Assembly: GCA_022866645.1 (NCBI GenBank)
Contig: JALHUQ010000049.1
Location: forward strand, 1 to 33,816
DNA length: 33,816 bases
DNA from: Woeseiaceae bacterium
GTDB taxonomy: Bacteria > Pseudomonadota > Gammaproteobacteria > Steroidobacterales > Woeseiaceae
Reading direction: 5' to 3'
How positions within the stretch are numbered: the first letter of the stretch is position 1; every line of letters begins with the position of its first letter. The position numbers were made by a program, and so were the translations under genes. A model generated the notes under the pieces. That model was not told the origin of the DNA, ran no database searches, and saw only the letters and a list, made by a program, of their open reading frames with translations. Below are positions 17,612-21,424 of the stretch, in pieces.

Positions 17612-18610
17612 TTACCGTCTGCGTCGGGTCTCGGTTATTCCGTCCGACAAAAACCTCTCAAGGTCTTCAGCCAGCGGTGCCGTGAAGTGCAGGTCATTGC
17701 CGCTATCGTCCGCAAATGCGATCGACTGTGCGTGCAAGAACAATCGGGTTAGTCCTGATTTCTTCGCCTTGCGATTGGCGTCGTCATCGCCGTAGCGCTC
17801 ATCCCCAACTATCGGATGCTCGACATGATCCAAATGGACACGAATCTGATGAGTGCGTCCGGTCAGTGGCGCGCACTGTAACAAACTGTAGGGACCGTAT
17901 TTGCGCGACAGGCTCACCCGGGTTTGCGCTGGTTTACCGTGCTTGCCACTGACGACAACGTGACGCTCACCGTCTTTGCGGTGTTGCACGTACAGCGGCG
18001 CATCGATCAGCTGCTCGCCAAGCTGCCAGTGTCCGACGACCAGTGCCAGGTAGTTTTTCTCGACCTTACCCTCGCGAAAGCGCTCATGAAGGTCACGCAA
18101 GGCACTGCGGCGTTTCGCCATGACGAGACATCCAGAGGTCTCGCGATCAATACGATGGACCAGCGCCAGCTCCTTCAGGTCCGGACGCGCGTGGCGCAAC
18201 AGCTCAATGACGCCATGGCTGATTCCGCTGCCACCATGTACGGCGACCCCTGTTGGCTTGTTGAGAACCAGCAATCGCTTGTCTTCGTATAGCACCCGAT
18301 CGAGCATATCCGTGGCCATTTTCGCGGACGGCGGCGCGCCCTCCGCGCGGATGTGCGCCGGGGGTATGCGTACTTCGTCGCCCTCCACAAGCTTGTGTTC
18401 AGCCCGGACCCGGCCGCCATTGACGCGAACCTCTCCGCGACGCAACAGGTTGTATACACGGCCTTTCGGCACCCCCGGCAACTCGCCGCGCAGGAAATTG
18501 TCAATACGCTGCCCGGCTCGCTCGGCATCGATTGCGACTTTGCGGACCTCGGTTTTCGTCGTGTTGACGGAATCTTGCGATTTCGCACCGTACGGTGGCT
18601 TTTCTTGCAT
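17612..18610 (-). CDS. rluC: 23S rRNA pseudouridine synthase RluC
   Basis: S4 domain (AGQRIDNFLRGELPGVPKGRVYNLLRRGEVRVNG), catalytic HRIDRETSGCLV, and GRTHQIRVH. ATG at 18610 chosen; the provided ORF begins at an in-frame TTG at 18616. Confidence 0.95.
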   Translation of the reverse strand: MQEKPPYGAKSQDSVNTTKTEVRKVAIDAERAGQRIDNFLRGELPGVPKGRVYNLLRRGEVRVNGGRVRAEHKLVEGDEVRIPPAHIRAEGAPPSAKMATDMLDRVLYEDKRLLVLNKPTGVAVHGGSGISHGVIELLRHARPDLKELALVHRIDRETSGCLVMAKRRSALRDLHERFREGKVEKNYLALVVGHWQLGEQLIDAPLYVQHRKDGERHVVVSGKHGKPAQTRVSLSRKYGPYSLLQCAPLTGRTHQIRVHLDHVEHPIVGDERYGDDDANRKAKKSGLTRLFLHAQSIAFADDSGNDLHFTAPLAEDLERFLSDGITETRRRR

Positions 18611-18620
18611 GATCAATAGC

Positions 18621-18648
18621 TTGTAGTGAGGTTGCGGTGTGCTATATT
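18621..18648 (+). promoter_or_regulatory. Candidate rne promoter
   Basis: TTGTAG (18621-18626), 16-bp spacer, TATATT (18643-18648). Confidence 0.5.
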
Positions 18649-18654
18649 ACCGCC

Positions 18655-18870
18655 CTGTGGTGCTCTGGCATACCAGTGCTCACAGCTCAAACGATTTTAT
18701 TTTGGTTCCGCGATCTGCGAAACCTGATTCCAGAAGGCAGCAAAACCGGATTCCGGATTGCGCCGAAGCGGCAGAGCCGCAGGGAAATCATGCTGATTTA
18801 TTTATGGGTGCTGGCGACATTGCGCCAGACCCGAAACGAGATGACTGATCTGATCGATGGCGCAATCCGG
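18655..18870 (+). ncRNA. Structured 5' leader of rne (candidate cis-regulatory RNA)
   Basis: Hand-read pairings: 18655-18685 hairpin, 18704-18724 hairpin, and a 12-bp perfect stem CCGGATTGCGCC (18753-18764) / GGCGCAATCCGG (18859-18870) enclosing hairpins at 18768-18780, 18785-18799 and 18806-18832. Confidence 0.6.
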
Positions 18871-18955
18871 CGCCGTGTTCGTTTGCATGACCTCCCCTCT
18901 GCCCGTATAGCGCCCTCCACCGTATTGCTGTCCTCACTTACACAAGTAGGACAAC

Positions 18956-21424
18956 ATGAAAAGAATGCTAATCAATGCAACTCAGGAAGAAGAGTTGCGC
19001 ATGGCGATGGTCGATGGCCAACGTCTTTACGATCTCAATATCGAAGCGCCGGCTAGCGAACGCAAAAAAGCCAATATCTATAAAGGAAGAATAACGCGCG
19101 TCGAGCCCAGCCTCGAAGCCGCCTTCGTCGATTACGGCGCTGATCGCCACGGATTCCTGCCGCTGAAAGAAATTTCCAGCGAATACTTTGTCAAAGAAAA
19201 CAAATCCGGCGGCAAACCCAATATCAAAGACGTTCTCAAGGAAGGTCAGGACATTGTCGTCCAGGTCGATAAGGAAGAACGAGGCAACAAGGGCGCAGCG
19301 CTAACGACCTTTGTCAGCCTCGCCGGTCGCTTCGTCGTTTTGAAGCCGAACAAGGACCGTTCCGGCGGCGTTTCACGTCGTATTACGGGTGAAGACCGCG
19401 ATCTCGCGCGCAAAGCGCTGCATGAGATTGAAATCCCTGAGAATATGAGTGTCATCCTGCGCACGGCTGGCATCGACCGCAGCGCCGAAGAGCTGGCGTG
19501 GGATCTGCAAAACCTGATGACCATCTGGGCTGCGATTCTGAACGTCGTGCTGGAGCGCCCGTCACCTTTCCTGATCTACCGCGAAGGCGACTCGGTCGTT
19601 CGTGCACTGCGCGATTACCTGACGGACGATATCGGCGAAATTCTGATCGATGACGAAGCGACCTATAAAGATGCCTATGAGCATGTCGAGCAGACAATGC
19701 CACAGAATCTTAAAAGGCTGAAACACTACGTCGACCCGGTTCCGCTGTTCACGCGCTTCCAGGTTGAGTCGCAGATCGAATCGGCGTTCGCTCATAACGT
19801 CACCCTGCCGTCCGGCGGCAGCATTGTAATCGATCATACCGAAGCACTGGTATCCATCGATATCAACTCGGCTCGCGCCACAAAAGGCGGCGATATTGAA
19901 GCAACCGCTTTGAACACCAACCTCGAAGCGGCTGACGAAATTGGCCGCCAATTGAGAATTCGCGATCTTGGCGGCCTCATCGTTATCGATTTCATCGACA
20001 TGGGACCGCAGAAAAACCAGCGTGATGTTGAAAATCGATTGCGCGATGCGGTAAACCAGGACAGGGCCCGGGTTCAGATTGGCAAGATCAGTCGTTTCGG
20101 CTTGCTCGAAATGTCTCGACAACGCATGCGCCCATCGATCGGTGAATCGGCTTACAAGACCTGCCCGCGTTGCACAGGCTTCGGCACTATTCGCGGTACC
20201 GAATCTTTGGCACTGGCTATCCTGCGCATAATCGGCGAGGAGGTGCTCAAGGAGCGTACCGCGAAGGTTATCGCCCAATTGCCGGTCGAGGTGGCAACGT
20301 ACCTGTTGAATGAAAAGCGCGACTGGGTACAGAACCTGCAGATTCGGCATGAGACCGAGGTTGTGCTGGTCGCAAATTCGAATCTCGAGACGCCGCACTA
20401 CGAAGTTCGCCGCGTACGCGACGATCAATTGGATTTGCCGGAAAACATGGGTGCGAGTTTTACGCTCGTACACGCTCAGATCGAGCCCGAATCTCCGCAG
20501 GCTGTCCTCGAACGCAAAGGTGCTGAGCTTGCGGCAGTCGCTACAATGAAACCATCGACGCCCGTACCAGAACCCAGGAAACCAGCAGGTATTGGGTTGT
20601 GGGCCAGGATTATTGCCTTCTTTACGGGCGGCGACAGCAAGAAGAAATCACATAAAGGACGCGACAAGACTACGCAGGGGAATCGGGGTAAACGCACGCA
20701 GCAACCGTCGCGTAATCGCAATGATTCACGGTCGCGTAGTGACAGCCGCGGTAGCCAGCGCAAGGCAACTGGCAAGAAAGCGCCAGCCAAACGACAGCCC
20801 AAAGCGCAGGAGCCGAAAGACACTGAGCAAAAGGCGAAAAGCCCGCAACAGCCCCTTGAACAAAAGCCAAAGCAGGCGGAAATCGAATCGTCTGAGGAAG
20901 GGAATGGCGAGCAAAAGAAAACTCGCAGTCGTCGAAGTCGCGGTGGCCGCAGGCGTCGCCGCGGTGCCGGAGACAAGTCAGAGCAGGCGGCGGAAAACCA
21001 GACGCAGAATGATGAGTCTTCTGTTGCCACTCTGGACCAAAATCCTCAGGAAGAAAGAACGCAAGACAGCGAGACGGACAACAATCGAAAGCCGCGACGA
21101 CGGGCATCGAAGAATGACGGTCCGCCAAAAGTAAGAACTGACACGGAACGGGCCAATGAAGCTGGCAGTACTGACGACACAGCGTCGCACAGGGTTCCGG
21201 CGACGCCCAAAGCTGACGCCAGTCCCGACGCTAAGCCAGCGCCAGCAGCAGTGGCTGAGACCAAGCCTGAGCCGAAACCGGTCGCTGAGCCGAAACCGCA
21301 AGCTATCGTTGAGGTAAAACCGGAACCGAAACCGGTCGCTGAGCCGAAACCGGTCGTTGAGGTTAATCCGATAGTGGCTGAAGCTAAGCCTGCCGCTCGC
21401 CTGTTACCGTGGGATGAAAACTAG
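18956..21424 (+). CDS. rne: Ribonuclease E
   Basis: 822 aa. MKRMLINATQEEELRMAMVDGQRLYDLNIE, S1 domain, DNase I-like domain, Zn-link CPRCTGFG, and a long basic low-complexity C-terminal half. Confidence 0.97.
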   Translation: MKRMLINATQEEELRMAMVDGQRLYDLNIEAPASERKKANIYKGRITRVEPSLEAAFVDYGADRHGFLPLKEISSEYFVKENKSGGKPNIKDVLKEGQDIVVQVDKEERGNKGAALTTFVSLAGRFVVLKPNKDRSGGVSRRITGEDRDLARKALHEIEIPENMSVILRTAGIDRSAEELAWDLQNLMTIWAAILNVVLERPSPFLIYREGDSVVRALRDYLTDDIGEILIDDEATYKDAYEHVEQTMPQNLKRLKHYVDPVPLFTRFQVESQIESAFAHNVTLPSGGSIVIDHTEALVSIDINSARATKGGDIEATALNTNLEAADEIGRQLRIRDLGGLIVIDFIDMGPQKNQRDVENRLRDAVNQDRARVQIGKISRFGLLEMSRQRMRPSIGESAYKTCPRCTGFGTIRGTESLALAILRIIGEEVLKERTAKVIAQLPVEVATYLLNEKRDWVQNLQIRHETEVVLVANSNLETPHYEVRRVRDDQLDLPENMGASFTLVHAQIEPESPQAVLERKGAELAAVATMKPSTPVPEPRKPAGIGLWARIIAFFTGGDSKKKSHKGRDKTTQGNRGKRTQQPSRNRNDSRSRSDSRGSQRKATGKKAPAKRQPKAQEPKDTEQKAKSPQQPLEQKPKQAEIESSEEGNGEQKKTRSRRSRGGRRRRRGAGDKSEQAAENQTQNDESSVATLDQNPQEERTQDSETDNNRKPRRRASKNDGPPKVRTDTERANEAGSTDDTASHRVPATPKADASPDAKPAPAAVAETKPEPKPVAEPKPQAIVEVKPEPKPVAEPKPVVEVNPIVAEAKPAARLLPWDEN
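21269..21352 (+). repeat. In-frame 30-nt repeat pair in rne encoding EPKPVAEPKP
   Basis: gagccgaaaccggtcgctgagccgaaaccg (21269-21298) and gaaccgaaaccggtcgctgagccgaaaccg (21323-21352), differing at one base. Confidence 0.9.

Follow-up and report, generated by a model that had tools for sequence, protein, structure and literature searches.

The 5' leader of rne, the gene for RNase E, is structured and conserved in Woeseiaceae, a family of uncultured marine bacteria, and probably regulates rne in cis. On balance, we lean towards a reading in which translation of an upstream open reading frame (uORF) that overlaps the start of rne, together with a switch at the rne Shine-Dalgarno (SD) sequence, sets the level of rne translation. 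The leader studied here lies in the gap between the divergent genes rluC and rne in the window, that is, the whole 33,816-nt stretch of DNA that was analysed, which belongs to a metagenome-assembled genome placed in Woeseiaceae by the names of its closest relatives, and four of its hairpins (P2, P4, P5 and P6) are conserved across Woeseiaceae leaders. The features of the locus are collected in Table 1.

Table 1. Features of the rne leader and its flanking genes, with positions in the window.
Feature	Coordinates	Strand	Sequence	Remarks
rluC	17612-18616	-		Divergent from rne
Candidate promoter	18621-18648	+	-35 TTGTAG; extended -10 TGTGCTATATT	TTGAAG-like -35; conserved -10
P1, 5'-terminal hairpin	18655-18685	+	CTGTG..CACAG, CATA loop	Uneven conservation
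P2 hairpin	18704-18711 with 18717-18724	+	GGTTCCGC/GCGAAACC	z 2.3 against tree-based null; 10 double changes
Anti-anti-SD arm	18736-18743	+	GGCAGCAA	Complementary to 5' arm of P6
12-bp long-range stem of the original prediction	18753-18764 with 18859-18870	+	CCGGATTGCGCC/GGCGCAATCCGG	Fails covariation test
P3 hairpin	18768-18780	+	GCGGC/GCCGC	Directly before uORF SD; all 5 pairs in 66/82 leaders
uORF SD	18781-18784	+	AGGG	CCGCAGGG-N(3-7)-ATG conserved in Woeseiaceae
AAATCA/TGATTT pairing	18785-18799	+	AAATCA/TGATTT	56 breaks, 1 double change
uORF, 88 aa	18790-19056	+	TAG at 19054-19056	166 nt from start to rne ATG; out of frame with rne
U-rich stretch, uORF codons 2-5	18793-18804	+		Candidate RNase E site (RNWUU); TTTT and RNWUU counts in text
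P4 hairpin	18806-18832	+		Within uORF; inner stem 18811-18816/18823-18828, outer 3 pairs
P5 local hairpin	18859-18874	+	GGCGC-AATCCG-GCGCC	Within uORF; arms 18859-18863/18870-18874
P6, hairpin over rne SD	18925-18953	+	5' arm TGTCCT (18929-18934) with rne SD AGGACA (18948-18953)	Covariation
rne, RNase E, 822 aa	18956-21424	+		NCBIfam TIGR00757, 508 bits; PRK10811, E 1e-248

The original prediction had proposed a promoter (TTGTAG / TATATT) in this gap, and the assignment proved plausible and conserved: the -10 element TGTGNTATATTA or its one-base TATG variant, in the forms TGTG(N)TATATTA or TATG(N)TATATTA, was found in all 28 close relatives. A transcription start near 18655 would be a reasonable reading of the promoter, since the -10 element is kept in all of these relatives. 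The RNA beginning at 18650 (309 nt) was predicted to fold with -110.7 kcal/mol, compared with -93.1 ± 5.5 kcal/mol for 100 dinucleotide-shuffled versions, none of which folded as well (z -3.2). Similarity of the leader to same-genus genomes was 70-84% across its full length, and no match to it was found in the sampled genomes from other families. For the comparisons below, rne starts were collected from about 200 genomes and 86 non-identical Woeseiaceae leaders were aligned, with conservation of pairing counted over 82 Woeseiaceae leaders. Covariation was scored against a null in which each column's own substitutions were re-placed on the tree; this tree was derived from the leader itself, and z-scores of about 2-3 are modest. 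Because a screen of all pairs brought only those of P4 near significance, the helices were scored one by one, and among the helices tested P4 alone is beyond doubt.

The uORF ATG at 18790 is preceded by GCAGGGAAATC and opens a frame that passes the rne ATG and ends at 19056; alignment gaps were of any size upstream of 18790, whereas those downstream were multiples of three. In all 81 Woeseiaceae leaders having the start motif, its ATG kept one and the same frame with respect to rne, with 11 different distances to the rne start (-148 to -214) that were all 1 modulo 3; one further motif hit, in another family (L126), lay in a different frame. When mapped onto a tree built from the coding sequence of RNase E, these distances required at least 21 independent changes, all of them multiples of three (P about 1e-10, assuming a chance of 1/3 per change). 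Among 79 sequences the uORF frame contained no stops, compared with 105-326 stops in the other five frames; since these sequences had been chosen for their open frame, the unbiased count is that of the 81 motif leaders, 80 of which remained open past the rne start, against about 22% expected to be open for random sequence of the same composition. The frame stays open for at least 77 nt beyond the rne start and encodes a product of 80-98 aa. From this conserved frame, free of stops and with indels in threes, we infer that the uORF is translated.

The sole Woeseiaceae leader with a uORF stop (L112, at -37 from the rne ATG) owes it to a single substitution, A where L172 has C, which represents either a real loss or an assembly error. 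In another leader (L019, G036:C118), a deletion that may be an assembly gap removes P3, the uORF SD and the start codon, while the flanking leader is normal. In a sample of 369 genomes spanning the class, the combined P3-SD-ATG motif turned up in the window's own genome only. Two other coding interpretations of the stretch were rejected: an RNase E extended in frame at its N-terminus would meet stops in 79 of 79 leaders, and an antisense gene across the uORF would meet 138-163 stops per antisense frame in the 79 sequences.

Translation of the uORF probably matters more than the peptide it would yield, because selection on the amino acids is weak. In three clades, dN/dS was 0.63-0.67 in the uORF frame versus 0.83-1.3 in the remaining frames, with RNA structure overlapping the frame, and the middle of the peptide is poorly conserved between clades. 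Both observations weigh against the idea that the uORF, in its overlap with rne, is a genuine gene for a small protein with an independent function, which the hydrophobic N-terminus might place at the membrane; we consider this explanation improbable. Such a gene would fit the strict retention of the frame and the content of hydrophobic residues, 74% in codons 2-10 versus 43% later, and comparable hydrophobic starts (MTAFLWLLLAL, MLLVLLAML) are found in overlapping uORFs of two other families; yet four uORF products had no Pfam match up to E 1, rne codons dictate the C-terminal third, and the frame is lost in AT-rich relatives. At fourfold-degenerate sites, variation in rne codons 1-34 (18956-19057 and the corresponding codons of relatives with the uORF) was 0.23, well below the 0.56 seen downstream. 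This synonymous constraint was not counted as proof of dual coding, since some close pairs lacking the uORF show a similar dip in the early rne codons.

All of the pairings in the original prediction were found at, or no more than one base from, their predicted positions, and three of its hairpins sit at or within the uORF. Their fate across the family differed. The inner six pairs of P4 covaried strongly (z 5.5, 20 double compensatory changes, 0 of 300 nulls, 82 leaders) and the outer three pairs had z 2.8; P2 was likewise present and supported by covariation. P3 was also confirmed in the window, and covariation speaks neither for nor against it because it is near-invariant. The hairpin predicted for the 5' end, P1, was present with uneven conservation, its inner stem (18665-18668/18673-18676), which shows C-G/T-A exchange, being paired in 20-23 of 28 close relatives and its outer pairs being poorly kept (9-27 of 28). 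The AAATCA/TGATTT pairing can form in the window and was unsupported across the 82 leaders; it covers the uORF start codon, and we rejected it as a hairpin, the conservation of the site being that of a Shine-Dalgarno sequence and a start codon.

The 12-bp long-range stem was given up as a conserved core of the leader. Among the 82 leaders, only five had its 12 pairs complete, each of them closely related to the window, and 94 breaking changes stood against 7 double changes (z 1.8). The stem failed on compensatory substitutions, the test named for it beforehand, and the data favour the alternative in which its 3' arm participates in the local hairpin P5 (z 2.9, 9 double changes, 1 of 300 nulls). 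The uORF, P5, P6 and the anti-anti-SD arm were absent from the original prediction.

Covariation of P4, P5 and P2 would suit a purely structural leader of the rne5 kind, in which hairpins such as P2 or P4 would serve as RNase E binding sites through which the enzyme controls the decay of rne mRNA, with the open frame as a by-product. A precedent exists in E. coli, where RNase E binds a stem-loop of its own rne leader and autoregulates through it, as cited in PMC3997798 and PMC10989929. We regard this explanation as very improbable for Woeseiaceae: a by-product frame would not survive at least 21 indels without any falling out of frame, and cmscan matched neither rne5 nor rne-II.

The idea of a diverged rne5, raised in the original prediction, did not hold, as a cmscan of 18500-19100 returned no rne5 or rne-II match even at E values up to 10. 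Above the Rfam gathering threshold of 180 bits, rne5 (RF00040) was found neither in the window nor in 17 other leaders, compared with 260 bits for the E. coli K-12 positive control, and rne-II (RF01756) likewise had no match at its gathering threshold in the window or these 17 leaders; membership in both families was therefore rejected. The Woeseiaceae leader does occupy the corresponding place, directly before the rne start at 18956 with a conserved promoter about 300 nt upstream, and like the enterobacterial rne5 it is a long multi-hairpin rne leader, divergent from rluC, with about 300 nt from promoter to ATG. It differs in lacking a match to the model and in having the overlapping uORF and the SD hairpin; in E. 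coli, the frame corresponding to the uORF is closed just upstream of rne and open only from -10. The rne5 leader of E. coli K-12 (L221, 1503-1823) contains the annotated yceQ (DUF2655) in antisense orientation. The rne-II motif of Pseudomonadales is comparable in being a candidate structured RNA, conserved and named after rne, from a different gammaproteobacterial order (PMC2864571), but its model does not match the Woeseiaceae leader.

A covarying hairpin over the rne SD was found in P6 (z 2.4, 3 double changes); in 17 leaders its pair 18931-18951 has changed from C-G to T-A. An alternative partner for the 5' arm of P6 lies upstream: TTGCTGTC (18925-18932) can pair with the anti-anti-SD arm, in which GGCAGC (18736-18741) is complementary to GCTGYC (18927-18932), and this overlap with the P6 arm makes the two pairings mutually exclusive. 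The first six positions of the anti-anti-SD helix were paired in 78-100% of 82 leaders, and its covariation was weak (z 1.4) because the helix hardly varies. Cognate GGCAGC and P6 arms paired better than arms swapped between genomes (0 of 10000 permutations, a result that relatedness inflates). In partition-function predictions, which ignore ribosomes, the rne SD was unpaired at 31% in the full leader, 15% in a leader truncated at the uORF start and 16% after GGCAGC was altered, whereas random 6-mer changes elsewhere left it at 29%. Predicted SD accessibility in the full leader exceeded that of the truncated form in 78 of 82 leaders and that of the GGCAGC-altered form in 75 of 81, and it fell when the anti-anti-SD arm was complemented in silico. 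These predictions are consistent with a switch in which pairing of GGCAGC with the P6 arm would free the rne SD.

AT-rich, reduced-genome Woeseiaceae (L123/L181, L124/L184, L128/L182, L131/L186 and L187) lack the uORF and yet keep P6, which indicates that the uORF is dispensable in these relatives. Their complementary upstream arm is longer, and in L182, L186 and L187 both arms have changed, for example to GGCAATGAGCAT with ATGTTCATTGCC, which by direct reading can pair at 12 of 12 positions.

The start of the uORF is also U-rich: TTTT occurred within its first 24 nt in 60 of 79 sequences, compared with 0.11 per later block, and RNWUU was present at the uORF start in 73 of 79. These motifs mark the uORF start as a putative site of RNase E cleavage. 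In the mechanism we propose, ribosomes would initiate at 18790, behind P3, read through P4 and P5, cross the rne SD and start codon in the other frame, and stop about 100 nt inside rne. P6 would hold the rne SD, which would become exposed when uORF ribosomes open P6 or, alternatively, when the 5' arm of P6 pairs with the upstream GGCAGC, and the net effect of the uORF on rne would be activation. If RNase E cut the leader in the stretch separating GGCAGC from P6, the conserved U-rich start of the uORF being one candidate site, both routes to opening P6 would be lost and rne translation shut off, which would produce negative feedback with RNase E as the sensor. We tentatively raise the possibility that this constitutes an undescribed class of RNase E autoregulation, in which an out-of-frame overlapping uORF is combined with an SD/anti-SD/anti-anti-SD switch; a cut by RNase E at the start of the uORF would then disconnect rne from translation upstream of it and close the SD.

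As in translational coupling by way of overlapping genes and SD-sequestering hairpins, translation upstream would here open the SD hairpin of the gene that follows. Classical coupled gene pairs terminate close to the downstream start, whereas the Woeseiaceae uORF stops 77-128 nt inside rne. This long overlap is as expected if ribosomes must transit the rne start, which fits the main rival to an activating uORF, namely repression by occlusion: ribosomes crossing the rne SD and start codon could equally well block initiation there, so that efficient uORF initiation would mean less rne, with P6 lowering the basal level. The frame of the uORF avoids both a TAG at -6, available in the rne frame, and an ATGA overlap, available in the third frame, as such transit would favour, and repressive leader ORFs have been documented for corL/corA (PMC11552253). 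We nevertheless judge repression unlikely, though it is the most serious of the rivals, as the strong conservation of P6, which translation would open, suggests that transit serves to open this hairpin, and the predicted SD strengths of the uORF and rne are similar (-4.7 versus -4.9 kcal/mol).

Individual parts of this mechanism have counterparts elsewhere. According to PMC10989929, RNase E of Synechocystis cleaves its own leader at a run of six U, which resembles the Woeseiaceae case in having a U-rich leader stretch as an RNase E target and a proposed negative feedback, but which works with premature transcription termination; the passages describing it mention no uORF. In corL/corA and mgtL/mgtA, the downstream gene is under the control of a short ORF whose leader has two mutually exclusive structures, but this ORF lies within the leader and acts via Rho, whereas the Woeseiaceae uORF overlaps the start of the regulated gene (PMC11552253). 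Literature searches turned up no relevant account of an upstream ORF ahead of rne or of RNase E in Woeseiaceae.

In many Gram-negative bacteria, the lifetimes of mRNAs are set by RNase E. The enzyme's self-control proceeds by different leader mechanisms in E. coli and Synechocystis. Our analysis suggests that the Woeseiaceae leader is another rne leader, with a control logic that differs from that of E. coli and is absent from the literature searched. If the proposed mechanism is true, translation of an overlapping ORF as the sensor would be a third, independently evolved solution for RNase E control; it would couple RNA decay capacity directly to the availability of ribosomes and provide a clear bacterial example of an overlapping reading frame maintained for its regulatory role.

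Overlapping ORFs in the same relative frame were also observed before rne in one family of the same order (L216, L217 and L224-L227) and in another family (L198, L201, L205 and L222). Their starts are hydrophobic (MTAFLWLLLAL..., MTGIFYWVLIAWL... and MLLVLLAML...) and lie at positions -139 to -157, or -103, and these uORFs are possibly of the same kind or class at the level of the order.
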